Assembly: GCA_027295505.1 (NCBI GenBank)
Contig: JAPUKU010000233.1
Coordinates: forward strand, 1 to 52,084
Length of the DNA: 52,084 bases
Direction of reading: 5' to 3'
Source: Acidobacteriota bacterium
Lineage (GTDB): Bacteria; Acidobacteriota; Polarisedimenticolia; JAPUKU01
Positions within the stretch are counted from its first letter, which is position 1; each line of letters begins with the position of its first letter. Position numbers and translations under genes: made by a program. Shown piece after piece: positions 738 to 41,166 of the stretch. The notes beneath the pieces were generated by a model. That model worked only from the letters and a program-made list of their open reading frames with translations, had not been told where the DNA came from and did not search any database.

Positions 738-2710
738 ACCAGCGCAGTGAATTGCTGCGCCCCTGGGCAGGGCGCGTGATCGTGGCGGCATTGGTTTGTC
801 TGCCCGTTTCACTATCGTGGGTGCTGGGGCAGACATCCGCGGGCGAGTCCGAAATTATCCTTCTGGACGATGAAGCTCCCGTCAGGAGTCAATCAACCGA
901 ACGCAAGCCCACCCGCAGGCAGCAGAGCGCTGCCGCTCCGCGGACCCCCGCCCTGGAGAATTCTGAGCTCCGCATCCAGGCGCTGTGGTTTGCTCGTAAA
1001 GCCTACCTCGAGATCGAGCAGGTCGAGCGTGCGGCGGAGAAGTTGCACGCCATGCAGGAGTTCCGCCGCCAGGAAGGGATCACCCGCCTCGATTCGATCG
1101 CCGGGGCTTTCTCTTATGAGGGGTACCAGCATCTGGAGGCCTCCCGGTTTGGTGCCGCCCACGCTTCTTTCCGCCTCGCCAAGGAGTTTAGTCCCAAGCT
1201 GCCACACGTCTATTACGGGCAGGCTCGAAGCCTCCACAACCTGCGCATGGGGTGGGCGGCCACTTTCCGCGAAACCCTGGAGGGGATCAAGGTCAGCCTG
1301 GGGAACTTCTCCTCCGCCTATGCCCTGATGGGCAACCTCATGCTCATCGGCCTGGCCGCCGCGAGCCTCGCCGGAGTCGTGCTGCTCCTGGCACTGGTCT
1401 GCAAATACCAGGCGCTTCTCCGCCATGATCTAGTGGAGAGGTTTGCCCGTCGCATGGGCGAATCGACGGCAGAGCTCCTGGCCTGGGTTGTGTTCCTCGT
1501 TCCGCTTCTGGTCGGCCTGGGCTGGGTCTGGGTCCTTCTAATCTGGACTGTCGCCATCTTTCCCTACGTGCGATCCTCGGAGCGTGCCCTGGTCACCGTG
1601 GTGCTGCTGTGGGCCCTGGCGCTTCCGGTAGCGTTCCAATCGGTGGCCCGGATCTTTGAAACGAGCGTGAACCCCGAGGTGCGCACGCTGGTCTCGGCGA
1701 TGCGTGGCGGCTACGACCCGGAGAAGATCCGCTTTCTGAAAGAGTCGGCCGAACGCGATCCCGACAACGCCATGACGCATTTCCTGCTTGGCGCCCTTTA
1801 CAAGAACGGCGGCTACTTCAACGAGGCGCTCGTGCGATACAACCGCGCCGTCGCCATTGACCCCCAGTTCCACCAGGCAATCAACAACCTCGGCAACCTT
1901 TACTTCCTGACCCAGAACTTTGCCGTCGCCCAGCAGGAGTACCAGAAGGCCGTCGATCTAAGGCCCGATTTCTCCCTGGGGTACTTCAACCTGCATGTGG
2001 CCCAGTACCAGCAGTTCAACGTCGAGGAGGCCGAACAGAACCTGGAAACCGCTCGCCATCTGGATCCCGAGGGGCTGGGCGTGCTGAGCACGGCCGAGCT
2101 TCCCACCAGTGTCGTGGACGCCCAGCTCGACCTGGACAGCGTGTGGGAGAGCGTCGTCGCAAGCAGTCGCAAGCCCGAGGACACGGCCTCCCCGGGCACA
2201 GCGCTGCGTAGCCCTTACGCCCTGGCTGGGGGCGCGGCCCTGCTGGCCGCCTACGGTCTGATGTTCTACCGCCGCAAGCGAAAAGCACGCCGATGCTACA
2301 AGTGCGGCAAGCCCTTCTGCTCGAGATGCCGCAGCGGCACGCAGTTTTCCGATTTCTGCACGCAGTGCGTGCACCTGTTTGCCAAGCGCACCGGGCTAGC
2401 GCCCAGCACCAAGAAGGCAAAGCTCGAGGAGGTGCGCTGCTTCGAGAACCGCCGGCGGCGTCTCAGCCGCCTGCTGTCCATGCTGACGCCGGGGCTCGGC
2501 CATGCATGGGGCGATCGCAGCCTGCTGGGGTTTGTCGCCATGCTTCTGTGGAGCTTCTGTCTCATCGCCTGGGTGGCTCACGACCAGCTGCTTCGCTTAT
2601 CCGACCTGGCGTACGCCAACGCTTCAAGTCCTGCTGGCCTGCTGTGCATCGCAGGCGGGGTTTTTGTGTGGTTAAGCGTCAACCTCATTCCGCCGTTGGC
2701 CCGGAGCTGA
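734..2710 (+). CDS. TPR-repeat membrane protein with a Cys-rich (zinc-finger-like) segment
   Basis: A 658-residue protein of unknown specific function. It starts with a hydrophobic signal/anchor (about residues 14-32), followed by a helical region. Membrane segments lie at about 200-225, 245-280 and 285-305. TPR-like repeats fill roughly 330-445, including LGALYKNGGYFNEALVRYNR and LGNLYFLTQNFAVAQQEYQK. A single membrane span near 495-512 precedes six cysteines at 521, 524, 529, 532, 542 and 545, spaced as in treble-clef or B-box fingers. Two more hydrophobic segments close the chain. The layout suggests a protein-interaction scaffold in the inner membrane. It is coupled to the DUF1844 gene by a 4-base overlap and lies 3 bases before the next gene. 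Confidence 0.75.
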   Translation: MNQRSELLRPWAGRVIVAALVCLPVSLSWVLGQTSAGESEIILLDDEAPVRSQSTERKPTRRQQSAAAPRTPALENSELRIQALWFARKAYLEIEQVERAAEKLHAMQEFRRQEGITRLDSIAGAFSYEGYQHLEASRFGAAHASFRLAKEFSPKLPHVYYGQARSLHNLRMGWAATFRETLEGIKVSLGNFSSAYALMGNLMLIGLAAASLAGVVLLLALVCKYQALLRHDLVERFARRMGESTAELLAWVVFLVPLLVGLGWVWVLLIWTVAIFPYVRSSERALVTVVLLWALALPVAFQSVARIFETSVNPEVRTLVSAMRGGYDPEKIRFLKESAERDPDNAMTHFLLGALYKNGGYFNEALVRYNRAVAIDPQFHQAINNLGNLYFLTQNFAVAQQEYQKAVDLRPDFSLGYFNLHVAQYQQFNVEEAEQNLETARHLDPEGLGVLSTAELPTSVVDAQLDLDSVWESVVASSRKPEDTASPGTALRSPYALAGGAALLAAYGLMFYRRKRKARRCYKCGKPFCSRCRSGTQFSDFCTQCVHLFAKRTGLAPSTKKAKLEEVRCFENRRRRLSRLLSMLTPGLGHAWGDRSLLGFVAMLLWSFCLIAWVAHDQLLRLSDLAYANASSPAGLLCIAGGVFVWLSVNLIPPLARS

Positions 2711-30169: not shown

Positions 30170-31444
30170 ATGGTTCTCTTTAACTATTCCACACGCGAAC
30201 TGACCGCGAAAATCGTCTACTACGGGCCCGGCCTGTGCGGCAAGACCAGTAACCTTCAGTACATCTACGAGAACCTGCCCCAGGATGTCTCCAGAGGCAA
30301 GATGTTGTCGCTGGCTACCAAGACTGATCGCACGCTCTTCTTCGATTTCCTGCCGATCGATCTAGGAACAATCCGCGGCATGAAAACTCGTATCCAGCTT
30401 TACACCGTTCCGGGCCAGGTGTTCTACAACTCCACGCGCAAGATGGTGCTCAAGGGAGCTGACGGAGTGGTGTTCGTGGCCGACTCGCAGGCAAAGATGA
30501 TAGACGCTAACATCGAATCCTTTGCTAACTTGGAGGAAAATCTCGCCGAACAGGGGATGCGTCTCGATCAGATGCCGCTTGTGCTGCAGTTCAACAAGCG
30601 GGATCTGCCCAACCTGGCCTCGATCGAGGAACTGAACTTGCAGCTCAATAAGTACAACGCTCCTTTCTACGAGGCCATCGTCATCAGCGGCATCGGTGTC
30701 CACGACACCCTGAAGGCGGCGACCAAGCTGGTTCTGAACTCCCTGACAAACAAATACCGTCTGGAAAAGCCGGAAGCAAGCAAGGCCACCGCTCAACCCG
30801 CTGCCCAAGCCGCGGCACCACCGGCCACCGCCCAACCCGCTGCCCCGGCTGCGACACCACCGGCTGCCGCCCAACCCGCTGCCCAGGCCGCGACACCACC
30901 GGCCGCCGCAGCCGCTCCACCGCTGGCCTCCGAGCCGGCGCCCCAGCCCCCGGTTGCAGCGCCCGTGGCCATCGCTCAGGAGGAACCAGATGCAGAGGTG
31001 CTCGAGCTGGTGGAGGACGGGGGCGACGAGAACATCCTCGAGATCGTCGAGGAACTGGCCGCCCCCGACACCGGCAGCACCACCATGCGCCTCTCCGCAG
31101 CTTCCGGTCCACTCGACCCCAACAGCAAGGCCGCTCGCCCGCCCTTGGAGCCGGACCCCGGCCTCGATGAGCTCGAGATCGTTCCGTTGCAGGGCGCGGG
31201 AGAGCCGGCCGCTAGCATCCCCTCCGTGCCGGTGAGTCCGGCCGAGGCCGTGAATGAGATTCCGCCAGAGCTCGGAGAGCCCCGAGCCCAAAACCCGGCC
31301 ACCGACCAGACGGTAGAGCCGATCGTGCTGAAAGTGCAGCCGGGTGAAAGTCCGATCGTGAACGTGCCCTTGAAAATCAACTATGGCAACCGCACGCTTG
31401 AATATAGGCTGCAAATTCATTTACAGGCGCTCGACGAGCACTGA
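30170..31444 (+). CDS. MglA-type Ras-like GTPase with long Ala/Pro-rich tail
   Basis: 424 residues. Residues 1-195 are an MglA-like GTPase: P-loop YYGPGLCGKTSNLQYIYENL, switch region LYTVPGQVFYNSTRKMVLKG, VVFVADSQ and QFNKRDLP. Residues about 200-260 are Ala/Pro repeats, then an acidic Glu-rich segment and a C-terminal end (PGESPIVNVPLKINYG...YRLQIHLQALDEH) that looks folded. MglA sets cell polarity for motility in Myxococcus, but stand-alone MglA is only about 195 residues. The tail may tether an effector or the pole (inference). No mglB-like roadblock gene is adjacent. The ribosome site is weak and the gap after der is 107 bases. Confidence 0.9.
   Translation: MVLFNYSTRELTAKIVYYGPGLCGKTSNLQYIYENLPQDVSRGKMLSLATKTDRTLFFDFLPIDLGTIRGMKTRIQLYTVPGQVFYNSTRKMVLKGADGVVFVADSQAKMIDANIESFANLEENLAEQGMRLDQMPLVLQFNKRDLPNLASIEELNLQLNKYNAPFYEAIVISGIGVHDTLKAATKLVLNSLTNKYRLEKPEASKATAQPAAQAAAPPATAQPAAPAATPPAAAQPAAQAATPPAAAAAPPLASEPAPQPPVAAPVAIAQEEPDAEVLELVEDGGDENILEIVEELAAPDTGSTTMRLSAASGPLDPNSKAARPPLEPDPGLDELEIVPLQGAGEPAASIPSVPVSPAEAVNEIPPELGEPRAQNPATDQTVEPIVLKVQPGESPIVNVPLKINYGNRTLEYRLQIHLQALDEH
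30794..30910 (+). repeat. three tandem 39-bp units inside the GTPase gene
   Basis: CAACCCGCTGCCC recurs at 30794, 30833 and 30872, exactly 39 bases apart. Each unit encodes 13 residues of the type QPAAQAATPPAAA (residues from about 209). Base differences between the copies are few, so the array is young or kept alike, and copy number may vary among strains. Confidence 0.85.
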
Positions 31445-31497: not shown

Positions 31498-34400
31498 ATG
31501 ACTGAGCTGGCGGATCTGCAAGAAGAGATCCGTTCCCTGTGCTCGCAGGCGGAAGCCTGGGGGCGCCATTACCTCAAGCACATTGCCGTTCTGCGCCGGG
31601 CCGCAGCATCCCTGCTTCCGCAGTTGACCGACTCCCGGGAGTTATCCCCTCTCACATCCGAGTGGCGGGCGGGGCAACCGCCGGTACGTGCGCCCCTGGA
31701 GGCGGTTCCCTCCGAGACGGGCGAGCACTTCCTCGATCGAGTGCAGTGCTTCTATACCCTGCAGCTGCTACGCCTGCACCGGGATTCGCTCGAGCGCCTG
31801 AGAGCACGCGCCCGCAGCGCGCCGCAGGACGCGGCCTCACTGCGTGACATTCTCGTGGACATCGAGCGGCGGCATGAATGGATCTCGCGAACCACCATCG
31901 AGGCCATGCTCCGGGAGTTCCTGCGGGACCAAGATGTTCCCGCGTTCGCCCTCTTCAATGTAGGCACGTCACTGCACCTGGATGACATCGATGTCGCGGT
32001 GGTGGCCGCCGCTGACTCTGCTCCGCTCAATCATGCCCTGTCGCGGCTCACGATGGAGATGATCCGGCGCGCCTCACGTCTGCACTTCTACCTTGCGGAA
32101 CAGCTGCAGACCGACAGCTACTACGCTCCGATGGATCGGTATCACCATTGGATCAAGCAGGGGGTGCGTAACTACGTAGGGGTCTCGGAACTATTGAGCG
32201 CGCGCTTCATTACCGGCGACCCCCAGCTCTACGAGCGTTTCGGACGGGAGATCGGCGAACGATTCTATTACACGCTGGGCAGCACAGCCGAGCACTACGC
32301 TTACATGCGGGGCATGCTCACTGAGGTTCGCAGTTTCTTCCGTCACGATCCCGAGGCGTTCAGCATCAATTTCAAACGGGATGCCATTCGTGCCATTCGC
32401 GCGCTGGTGAGCGCTGAGAGCACTCGTTACAGTATCCACGCAACCTCCGTGTGGAAGGCACTGAACATTCTGTGCTCGAAGGAAGAACGGCTGCGCGAGG
32501 TTTACCAGGGCCTCGAAGAAGTCCTGGTGCTGTTCGAAATCTTTCGCTACCTATACCAGCTTTTCGTGGTCCAGGAAGAGCATCTGGCGCTCTCGGACGA
32601 TGAAATTCTCGGCGTTCTGGATCCGATTGCCCGCGAGCTGGGCTACGAGGAGATCCGGCACATCCGGCCCGGAAACCGTCTGCTCCTGGAGTACAGCGCC
32701 GCCCTCATCCGCAGTCGCCGCCTCGTACAGACACTTCTGGATCAAGAGCGTATCTACGTCAGGGCACTGCACGTGTTCGGGAAAATTGCCCGCAGCGGCC
32801 AGTTTGTAACATCCCTGGCTGAGATCCGCGGCAACATGGGACGCGAGTTTCTCGAGGTGGTCCGCTGGTTCCGGGGCACTCCCTTCTGGCAGGACATCCT
32901 GCGCCTGCTTACGAACATTGACAGGGACTCCCTGAGGCGCTTTGCGGACGACCTGCTCGAGCCGGGTGAAGGGCCTTCCCTCGTGGAACGCTACGTGCGG
33001 CTGGTCAGCCAGGACACGCGCTCCTTGCTTCGACTGCTTCTGGTCATAGGGGAGCACCGTGACTATGGCCGTGTTAGCCACCTGTTCTGGATGTTTATGG
33101 AGTCATGGCAGCAGCGTTTGAGCCGCAAGGTCGCAGAGCGCGAGCGCCTACTCTCCTTCTACCAACGCGATCCAAAACCGTTCGTGCGGCTCCTGCAGTG
33201 CCTCGACCAGAAACACCAGCAGGCCCTTCTCGAAACGCTGTCGAGGCCCGTGCTGGATCCGGAGCTCGTCAAGGTGCGCAGCGGTCTGCTGCACGTCCTA
33301 GCAACGTTCACCCGTTGCAGCCGGTTTTTCGAGCGCACCCTTCGCCACGTCGTCGAGCGGCACCCGGAGGTGCTCAAGCATCTGGACGACGGCCGCGCCC
33401 TCGGGCGCATGGGCCGCTGGATGCTCACACGTTCGTTGAGGTTGAGGGATATTGACGCCGGCCTGGCCGAAGCCCGCTCTCATTACGAACTCGAGTTCGT
33501 GCGCCTGGGAACCGAGATCATGAACGGACGGCGAATCCCGATCCTGCTGCGTGATTTCCGCCGCATGTCAGAGCGCACCGTCACGGCGCTGGCCACGCTG
33601 TGCCATCGACGCCTTCGCGAGGAGGCATTCCCGGCCGCTCCCCCCGAGACCGAGCCCCCGTACGCCATCCTGGCGACCGGCGGCAACGCGCGCGAGGAAG
33701 GCTATCTGGCCGACTACGACGTGATCTTCCTTGCCCCCGAGGACGAACAGCTGAATTTCTGCCAGCGTGTGGCCGTGCACTTCAACGCGGAACTGACACG
33801 GGTGGGTATCCTACCGCACCATCTCCTGGCCGATCATTTCGGACGTTATGCGCTCACGATCGGCGACCTCCGCGGCTTGCTGCAGAAAGGGTGCGGCCAG
33901 GACTTTGCCGAGCGCTCAGAGATCCTGGGCGCCCGTTTCGTCTATGGCAGCTCCAGGCTCTACGAGGAATTTGTGCGAGAGATCGTGGACGGCGAGGTGC
34001 TTCTCCACCGGAAATCGTATCTGCTGGCCATGCTTGCCGATGAACGCGCCCGCCAGAAGCCGACTCCCGAGGCCGGACGGCGAATGATCCGCCTGAAGTT
34101 CGATCGGGGCTCGCTCAAGGAGATCCACCTGACGCTCGATCTGCTGCGCGCGCACTTCAGCATCATCGAGCCGGGAGCTCGGCGCCTGCTCGCAAAGCTG
34201 GTAAAGCGGGACCCGGAGCACCGGGAGGAGTATTACACGCTTCTGCGGTCCCTGAACTTTCTGGTCCGGATGCGGGTCCTCTACCAGCTCACGGTCGGAC
34301 ACTACGGCACCATCGATCCACAGCAGATGGGGCACGCTATCGACGCCCTGCGGATTAAGGTCCGGCCGGGGGATGACCCGGCGGAGGCGCTCCTGGGCCG

Positions 34401-34527
34401 ATACCGGCGTCGAACGGCCCGGTCAGCCCGCGCCTCGGCCCGCCTGAGCACCTGGCTGAGGGGGGAGCTGGAAGACGGGGCCGGGCGCCAAACCGTGGAC
34501 AGAATCCCTCCATCTTCTATATTGTGA
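31498..34527 (+). CDS. large protein with two nucleotidyltransferase-like domains, function unknown
   Basis: 1009 residues, all-soluble and Arg/Leu-rich helical. Residues 722-745 carry a convincing nucleotidyltransferase motif, ATGGNAREEGYLADYDVIFL, of the GlnD/DUF294 type (GG-x-AR-x-E then D739 and D741). An earlier, weaker copy lies at 154-168 (FNVGTSLHLDDIDVAVVA), which keeps GTS and D-x-D but lacks the Arg/Glu part. Two NTase-like domains separated by a long helical linker recall GlnE or GlnD, but neither the GlnE motif (GKLGG) nor HD or ACT domains of GlnD are seen. It may modify a protein or nucleotide; the substrate is unknown. It follows the MglA-like gene by 53 bases. Start ATG at 31498. 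Confidence 0.75.
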   Translation: MTELADLQEEIRSLCSQAEAWGRHYLKHIAVLRRAAASLLPQLTDSRELSPLTSEWRAGQPPVRAPLEAVPSETGEHFLDRVQCFYTLQLLRLHRDSLERLRARARSAPQDAASLRDILVDIERRHEWISRTTIEAMLREFLRDQDVPAFALFNVGTSLHLDDIDVAVVAAADSAPLNHALSRLTMEMIRRASRLHFYLAEQLQTDSYYAPMDRYHHWIKQGVRNYVGVSELLSARFITGDPQLYERFGREIGERFYYTLGSTAEHYAYMRGMLTEVRSFFRHDPEAFSINFKRDAIRAIRALVSAESTRYSIHATSVWKALNILCSKEERLREVYQGLEEVLVLFEIFRYLYQLFVVQEEHLALSDDEILGVLDPIARELGYEEIRHIRPGNRLLLEYSAALIRSRRLVQTLLDQERIYVRALHVFGKIARSGQFVTSLAEIRGNMGREFLEVVRWFRGTPFWQDILRLLTNIDRDSLRRFADDLLEPGEGPSLVERYVRLVSQDTRSLLRLLLVIGEHRDYGRVSHLFWMFMESWQQRLSRKVAERERLLSFYQRDPKPFVRLLQCLDQKHQQALLETLSRPVLDPELVKVRSGLLHVLATFTRCSRFFERTLRHVVERHPEVLKHLDDGRALGRMGRWMLTRSLRLRDIDAGLAEARSHYELEFVRLGTEIMNGRRIPILLRDFRRMSERTVTALATLCHRRLREEAFPAAPPETEPPYAILATGGNAREEGYLADYDVIFLAPEDEQLNFCQRVAVHFNAELTRVGILPHHLLADHFGRYALTIGDLRGLLQKGCGQDFAERSEILGARFVYGSSRLYEEFVREIVDGEVLLHRKSYLLAMLADERARQKPTPEAGRRMIRLKFDRGSLKEIHLTLDLLRAHFSIIEPGARRLLAKLVKRDPEHREEYYTLLRSLNFLVRMRVLYQLTVGHYGTIDPQQMGHAIDALRIKVRPGDDPAEALLGRYRRRTARSARASARLSTWLRGELEDGAGRQTVDRIPPSSIL

Positions 34528-40353: not shown

Positions 40354-41166
40354 ATGCCCCCGTCTGCTTTCAAGGATTTTACGGTCACCTACCGCGCCGG
40401 CGAGCGCATCTTCTCTGAAGGGGAGAAGGGGGCTGAGTTCTTCGTGGTTCAGAAGGGCCGCGTCGAAATCTTCCGGGAGCAGAACAACAATCGAAAGCCA
40501 CTCGCGCACATGGAGAAGGGAGATTTCTTCGGGGAGCTCTCCGTGCTTCTTGATGTGCCCCGCGCCGAGAACGCCGAAGCACTCGAGAAATGCGAGCTCA
40601 TCGTCATCAACTCCACGGTGTTTGATCAGATGATCCGCTCCAACATCGAGATTGCGGTGCGCATTCTCCGCAAGCTGTCTCTACGATTGCTGGAGACGAC
40701 GCAGAAGCTGCAGGGTCTGCAGGGAGCCGCGAGCGCGGAAGACATCGACGCGCCCCCCGCCGCCACCATGACCGCCGAGGAGGAGCCCGTCCCGCCCCCC
40801 GAGGCCGCCAGCGAAGCGGAAGCCGTGGAACGAAATCCCCTCCAGGGAGCGTATCTGGAGACCGAGGATGGAGAGCAGCAGTTCACTCTTAAGGGAGACA
40901 CGCTGACGATAGGGCGTTTCGATCCGGTCACCGGACTCAAACCCGAGGTCGATCTCTCTTCAGTGGACATCAATCGCTCGGTGTCACGGCGTCATGCCAA
41001 GCTTCAGCTCGAGAACGGAGTTTACCAGCTTTCCGAGGAGGTCGGGGCATTGAACGGCACCCTGGTCAACAACCGGCGGCTGGTCCCTGGCAAGCCGTCG
41101 CCGCTCGACGATGGCGACACGATCCATTTCGGAATGGTGCAGCTGACGTTCCACAACAAGGGATGA
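40354..41166 (+). CDS. cyclic-nucleotide-binding and FHA-domain signalling protein
   Basis: 270 residues. Residues 5-120 form a cNMP-binding (CRP-like) domain: YRAGERIFSEGEKGAEFFVV, and GDFFGELSVLLDVPRAENAE carrying the FGE-x6-PR phosphate-binding cassette. Residues about 165-268 are an FHA domain: TIGRFDPVTG...SVSRRHAKLQ...NGTLVNNRRL and DGDTIHFGMVQLTF. FHA domains bind phosphothreonine. There is no HTH, so this is not a CRP-type transcription factor; it probably joins second-messenger and Ser/Thr-kinase signals. The small gene at 41188 follows 21 bases on. Confidence 0.9.
   Translation: MPPSAFKDFTVTYRAGERIFSEGEKGAEFFVVQKGRVEIFREQNNNRKPLAHMEKGDFFGELSVLLDVPRAENAEALEKCELIVINSTVFDQMIRSNIEIAVRILRKLSLRLLETTQKLQGLQGAASAEDIDAPPAATMTAEEEPVPPPEAASEAEAVERNPLQGAYLETEDGEQQFTLKGDTLTIGRFDPVTGLKPEVDLSSVDINRSVSRRHAKLQLENGVYQLSEEVGALNGTLVNNRRLVPGKPSPLDDGDTIHFGMVQLTFHNKG

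Follow-up and report, generated by a model that had tools for sequence, protein, structure and literature searches.

Two bacterial enzymes are among the known systems closest to the protein described here. GlnE, the glutamine synthetase adenylyltransferase/adenylyl-removing enzyme, carries PF03710 and PF08335 twice, and its two halves act oppositely on glutamine synthetase. GlnD, the PII uridylyltransferase/uridylyl-removing enzyme, combines a nucleotidyltransferase domain and PF08335 with HD and ACT domains. Known enzymes of the GlnD/GlnE type with this module pair transfer nucleotides onto tyrosines of metabolic proteins. Known regulators at the 2-oxoglutarate node are PII and OdhI/GarA, the latter being FHA proteins that act on the pyridine-nucleotide-dependent 2-oxoglutarate dehydrogenase. 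The 2-oxoglutarate:ferredoxin oxidoreductase (KGOR) is a ferredoxin-linked and partly reversible alternative to this dehydrogenase; in anaerobes, it catalyzes a key reaction of the reductive TCA cycle.

The window analyzed here, a stretch of 52,084 nucleotides from an Acidobacteriota bacterium, encodes a 1009-residue protein (Table 1) which the initial annotation had proposed to be a two-site nucleotidyltransferase with GlnE layout and, conceivably, a signalling modifier whose function is undescribed. In these points our analysis supports the proposal, a signalling role being probable. The uninterrupted reading frame represents a real gene, because full-length homologues with ca. 25-28% identity are found in many phyla. 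We define the family as KGOR-linked tandem nucleotidyltransferases; of its features, full-length homology and both DxD sites are present in the window's protein, and adjacency to korC or korDABC is not. The gene is single-copy in the window's genome (G000; 2.9 Mb, 259 contigs). Besides this genome, 10 of 60 relatives from the Acidobacteria phylum carry a full-length homologue at this level of identity, and 66 further loci were found in genomes outside the relative set. Carriers belong to a dozen phyla, most of them uncultured, and the lineages of the further loci include Neomarinimicrobiota, KSB1, Zixibacteria, Krumholzibacteria, Latescibacteria, Calditrichota, WOR-3, TA06, Cloacimonadota, Gemmatimonadota, Acidobacteria, Myxococcales and a few labelled otherwise. 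All of the loci outside the relative set are from metagenome-assembled genomes by title, one of them named Caldithrix sp. Literature text searches, covering mainly papers outside subscription, yielded no description of the family, which thus appears to be an undescribed bacterial family with two GlnE/GlnD-like protein-modifying sites. The modules themselves are known; new are their apparently independent duplication and KGOR as genomic partner.

Table 1. Features of the tandem nucleotidyltransferase gene and of associated genes. Positions are those of the window unless a locus or contig is given.
Feature	Position	Strand	Remarks
Gene for 1009-aa tandem nucleotidyltransferase	31498..34527	+	Single uninterrupted ORF, ATG start
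N-terminal site, residues 156-165, GTSLHLDDID; consensus VGTRxDQDDID	31963..31992	+	D163, D165 invariant; aligns with catalytic DxD of GlnE-AR and GlnD
N-half signature, residues 291-298, consensus NPKxDxLR	32368..32391	+	K293, R298 63/63; counterpart of C-half KExxGGLRD by N-half/C-half profile alignment
Middle all-helical region, ca. residues 440-675, joins both modules	32815..33522	+	AlphaFold models; weak HEAT-repeat protein matches
C-terminal site, residues 728-741, GGNAREEGYLADYD; consensus GGHAREQxFDDDYD	33679..33720	+	D739, D741 63/63; aligns with GlnD GGYGRGELxPxSDxD
C-terminal PF08335-like helical domain, residues 865-973, KFDRGSLKE for consensus KExxGGLRD	34090..34416	+	PF08335 15.3 bits, cut-off 21
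Solo diverged korC	G000:C52:1-285 (L164)	-	59% identical over 95 residues; cut by contig end
Small upstream gene (cluster c13)	L022:9273-10004, L025:1517-2260, L037:9102-9941, L038:1504-2235, L053:9218-9970, L062:1-282

Profile comparisons using hhalign point to an internal duplication, since the N-half profile aligns with the C-half profile at E = 2.6e-33. The C half aligned with the GlnD nucleotidyltransferase at 1.3e-18 and with both GlnE halves at ca. 1e-14, while weaker matches were obtained for the N half (GlnE-AR 1.2e-6, GlnD 4e-7). The full-length family profile was co-linear with GlnE over 803 columns (E = 6.6e-18). Throughout the alignments, DDID of the N half and DYD of the C half coincided with the SDxD that is catalytic in GlnE and GlnD. 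When the PDB was searched by sequence alone, the window's protein found no match; the family profile does find GlnE there. AlphaFold models were of higher quality for the L083 homologue (AF2, 42 alignment rows, pLDDT 90.6, pTM 0.83) than for the window's protein (10 rows, pLDDT 81, pTM 0.61), and the top PDB matches of both were the two halves of E. coli GlnE, with the L083 model matching the GlnE N-terminal domain (1v4a) at a TM score of 0.74 by target length (E = 7.6e-11).

The family thus resembles GlnE in having two nucleotidyltransferase plus helical modules in tandem, at a similar length of ca. 950-1000 residues, and in its best structural match. Each module consists of a nucleotidyltransferase domain with polymerase-beta fold and, after it, a helical domain of PF08335 type. 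Differences are found at the level of domain profiles, as PF03710 does not hit the window's protein even at E<=10 and matches 3 of 42 family members weakly (best E 0.0034), and in the shortened N-site loop and the genomic partner, which is KGOR instead of glutamine synthetase. When the modules were placed in a tree individually, the family's N and C halves formed one clade, the AR and AT halves of GlnE another and GlnD a third, each with support of ca. 100/99, some branches being long. The tandem layout seems to have arisen separately from that of GlnE, since the tree groups the family's halves with each other and the GlnE halves with each other. Common descent of the N half with GlnE-AR and of the C half with GlnE-AT is contradicted by this tree, with long branches leaving some doubt.

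Similar to GlnD, the C half carries the GGxAR...DxD and KExxGGLRD motifs. Unlike GlnD, the family is a tandem duplicate and occurs in genomes that often lack PII. The nearest NCBIfam models are GlnD models, but all scores are far below cut-off. Pfam searches detected neither an HD nor an ACT domain in the window's protein and no family-wide match to either among 42 members. PF08335 (GlnD_UR_UTase), which stays below threshold in the window's copy, scores 79.7 bits in the L083 homologue, matches 41 of 42 aligned members at E<=0.01 and is found in both halves of several relatives' proteins. PF08335 and DUF294_C have been placed among the HEPN-like helical domains that follow GlnD/GlnE-like nucleotidyltransferases (PMC3710099). 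The DUF294 putative nucleotidyltransferases (PF03445/PF10335) reach 20.5 bits in the C half of the window's copy, with a PF03445 cut-off of 21. Only 6 of 42 family members match weakly, and neither a CBS nor a cyclic-nucleotide domain was found. The initial annotation had held that the protein is neither GlnE nor GlnD and had named beforehand an ordinary match to either enzyme, or a catalytic Asp pair that is not conserved, as grounds for abandoning its proposal. HMMER searches of Pfam and NCBIfam gave no ordinary match to GlnE or GlnD, and both Asp pairs are conserved. By profile the protein is neither enzyme, though it is a relative of both.

In an alignment of 63 members, D163 and D165 of the N-terminal site were conserved in 63/63 and D162 in 62/63 sequences, within the extended consensus VGTRxDQDDIDhG(I/V)(I/V). 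The glycine loop at this site is four residues shorter than normal and shorter than that of the C-terminal site. Both sites had been correctly located in the initial annotation, and profile-profile alignment places both DxD pairs on the catalytic DxD of GlnE and GlnD. The description of the N-terminal site as decayed did not hold up. Because its Asp pair is invariant within a conserved motif, the alignment identifies it as a conserved site with a shorter loop and not as a relic; the drift lies in the window's copy and affects both sites. With this shortened loop, the N-terminal site may serve for binding instead of transfer.

Genomic context was analyzed by tblastn, with kor genes named according to NCBIfam (2-oxoacid/2-oxoglutarate:ferredoxin oxidoreductase). 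Sixty-four loci offered room upstream of the family gene, and at 51 of them korC lies immediately before it on the same strand. At most of these 51 loci, the family gene stands behind the whole korD-korA-korB-korC set, as the last gene of the korDABC operon. In KSB1, FolE2 and Ndk often lie downstream. At six further loci (L056, L066, L067, L077, L080, L082), the family gene is transcribed divergently from the adjoining succinate dehydrogenase genes sdhAB, which encode the next enzyme but one after KGOR in the cycle. Where searched, the genomes of these six loci carry a canonical korC elsewhere. Members away from kor are also found, for example L058, L068, L084, L087, G016, G055 and the window's gene.

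Among 60 relatives from the Acidobacteria phylum, KorA (>=65% identity) and the family were found together in 9. G007 has such a KorA only, G055 the family only, and the other 49 have neither (Fisher 7e-9, ignoring descent and confounded by common descent). G055 has a KorA of 56% identity, and G025 was counted as positive with its KorA split over contigs. In the subset belonging to family f3, KorA and the family went together without exception (7 vs 5, 0.0013). The family gene is adjacent to kor in 8 of these relatives. Beyond the phylum set, a KorC with at least 53% identity was present in all 28 other family-carrying genomes searched. In G007, which has a canonical KorA and no detected family gene, a second short match to the KorC C-terminus lies at the start of a contig behind a complete korDABC (L165, G007:C36:1-12000; 19-99, 2033-2548, minus strand).

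Based on the constant presence of KorC and on gene order, we propose that the family is a nucleotidylylating regulator of the four-subunit KGOR (KorDABC) or of a KorC-like partner, a reading to which we assign a probability of roughly 45%. The family probably helps to switch the 2-oxoglutarate oxidizing enzyme on and off. The C-terminal module would attach AMP or UMP to one of the KGOR subunits or to a KorC-like partner, with gamma (KorC) as the best candidate target. The N-terminal module would then reverse or sense the modification, in the way the GlnE halves act on glutamine synthetase. As a result, flux from 2-oxoglutarate to succinyl-CoA would be gated by carbon, nitrogen or energy state. 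Domain composition, the conservation of both sites, co-occurrence and operon linkage are observed; catalysis, the nucleotide, the target and its modified residue, the direction and effect of the reaction and the physiological signal are inferred. Like OdhI/GarA and PII, the family would act at the branch point between carbon oxidation and nitrogen assimilation. If correct, the carbon-nitrogen branch point would be under a novel control that operates also where PII, GlnD and GlnE are missing, and the layout of GlnE would have been invented independently for a second time. The arrangement within the KGOR operon extends across Marinimicrobia, KSB1, Zixibacteria, Krumholzibacteria, Latescibacteria, Calditrichota, Acidobacteria and others. 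Our literature searches, again mostly outside subscription papers, found no paper on covalent regulation of KGOR and none on covalent nucleotidylylation of the ferredoxin-type enzyme.

Operon linkage would also fit a factor for KGOR assembly or a regulator that responds to 2-oxoglutarate but controls another process. A structural or non-catalytic helper, involved in assembly, maturation or scaffolding of KGOR and with nucleotidyltransferase folds that only bind nucleotide, would be in line with the gene's position after korDABC, the large helical linker with its weak matches to HEAT-repeat solenoids and the shortened N-site loop. Yet inactive nucleotidyltransferase folds usually lose their DxD, and here the Asp pairs, the GG..AR motif and KExxGGLRD are very strongly conserved, even in the fast-evolving copy of the window. 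We thus consider a helper role rather unlikely.

The layout and fold shared with GlnE could alternatively reflect a glutamine synthetase adenylyltransferase that replaces GlnE. Among 61 genomes of the phylum, GlnE (17 genomes) and the family (11 genomes) never occur together, with GlnE absent from 11/11 family-carrying genomes (chance 0.018, ignoring descent). In contrast, GlnE is present alongside the family in 2 of the 28 other genomes, those of L083 (Latescibacterota) and L041 (Myxococcales), the recurring neighbor is kor and not glnA, and the duplication is separate from that of GlnE. The two genomes with both proteins rule out strict replacement, and we regard this role as improbable in general. 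A replacement of GlnD, acting as PII uridylyltransferase, could be suggested by the similarity of the C half to the nucleotidyltransferase half of GlnD, its closest relative, and by the nearest NCBIfam models. It is highly improbable given that no HD or ACT domain was found and given the distribution of PII (PF00543), which has no match in 6 of the 11 family-carrying genomes of the phylum (the window's genome and 5 of 10 relatives) and in 13 of the 28 other genomes, including L059 and L063, whose records are titled chromosomes. Family-carrying genomes without a PII match argue against PII as the general target, and we rejected this reading. Since PII is widely missing and GlnE is present in 2 of 28 genomes, neither PII nor the absence of GlnE is required; the element common to family-carrying genomes is a KorC.

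KorC as the direct partner of the proposed regulator is suggested by pairs of a solo korC and the family gene. At about a dozen loci, mostly from Zixibacteria and Krumholzibacteria, a solo diverged korC precedes the family gene, with no korAB next to the latter on that strand (L028, L033, L035, L046, L052, L054, L055, L063, L064, L070, L079, L085). In these solo KorCs, the GGQG loop is changed to GGHG, SSNHG or GAHG and GK to AAR. The solo-korC genomes searched carry a more canonical korC at another place. At L028, L046, L055, L063, L079 and L085, another, less similar kor operon (KorA ca. 50%, KorC ca. 37% identical) lies divergent from the pair. A tentative and fairly doubtful extension of our proposal is that the KorC-like protein is a new signal partner, reversibly nucleotidylylated by the family in a role like that of PII or glutamine synthetase. 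In Zixibacteria, Krumholzibacteria and perhaps the window's genome it would be a dedicated, non-catalytic KorC signal protein, compare the eroded GGQG loop. Tyr31 (EAAAIYD) would be a candidate acceptor. This position is Tyr in 49 of 50 family-linked KorCs and Phe, Phe, His, Tyr and Glu in five moderately close KorCs (57-64% identity) of relatives lacking the family, a contrast that is confounded by descent.

In the window itself, the gene is adjacent to neither korC nor korDABC and is instead flanked by genes for an MglA-like GTPase and a zinc-ribbon protein. The GTPase (30170-31444, plus strand) contains a long insert rich in Ala and Pro and, at ca. residues 385-424, an additional C-terminal segment that looks conserved, and its Pfam matches to Ras, Arf and Roc are weak only. 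It had been suggested as a possible target of the window's protein, by AMPylation or UMPylation. DrrA modifies the GTPase Rab1 in such a manner. The two genes lie on the same strand, 53 bp apart, and among the structural matches to the model of the window's protein DrrA-Rab8a ranks fourth (E = 2.1e-4). However, the better model of the L083 homologue has no DrrA match below E = 0.001, and at no other locus examined does the GTPase stand beside a family gene, the recurring neighbor being the KGOR operon and above all korC. We thus found the suggestion unsupported and consider it very improbable; local re-targeting to the GTPase after leaving the kor operon could have taken place in the window's copy. 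In the 24-43 kb part of the window, no other gene recurs beside homologues, except for a weak partial match of 40354-41166 to L025; a gene-order link to the MglA, Der or zinc-ribbon genes was rejected.

Profile searches of the window's genome with PF03710, PF08335 and PF00543 gave no match. As PII, GlnD and GlnE were not detected, nitrogen control in this genome must differ from the textbook system. A canonical KorA was not detected either; the best match is a 701-codon open frame of 35% identity with a KorB-like gene beside it, and korAB may have been missed in the 95.5% complete assembly. Complete absence of the KGOR gamma subunit is ruled out by a solo korC fragment at a contig edge, located directly after sucC-sucD and with its GGQG loop changed to GSADQN. 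This fragment and the family gene lie on different contigs. Both halves of the proposed pair, the family protein and a diverged KorC, thus persist in this genome, but at separate places.

The copy in the window has drifted from the family form. It shows Q161L, Ser instead of the Arg found in most members at residue 158, and KF..GSLKE in place of KE..GGLRD. At conserved columns it is the most divergent of 42 aligned members, retaining 41 of 62 near-invariant columns, and its end branch in the family tree, at 3.69 compared with a median of 0.45 (8x), is too long for placement inside the tree. Among the 23 columns that show no variation in the remaining 41 members it keeps 21, including all four Asp residues of both DxD pairs, which argues for rapid evolution with the active sites held. 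The window's copy is thus a fast-evolving, relocated member that may or may not have kept the family function.

At six loci, a small gene of ca. 245 codons (cluster c13, Table 1) lies directly upstream of the family gene, several times between korC and the latter. Its product is weakly similar to DUF6036 nucleotidyltransferases at sub-threshold scores and carries the motif ...WDxDLLF, so that it possibly represents a third nucleotidyltransferase in the same operon.
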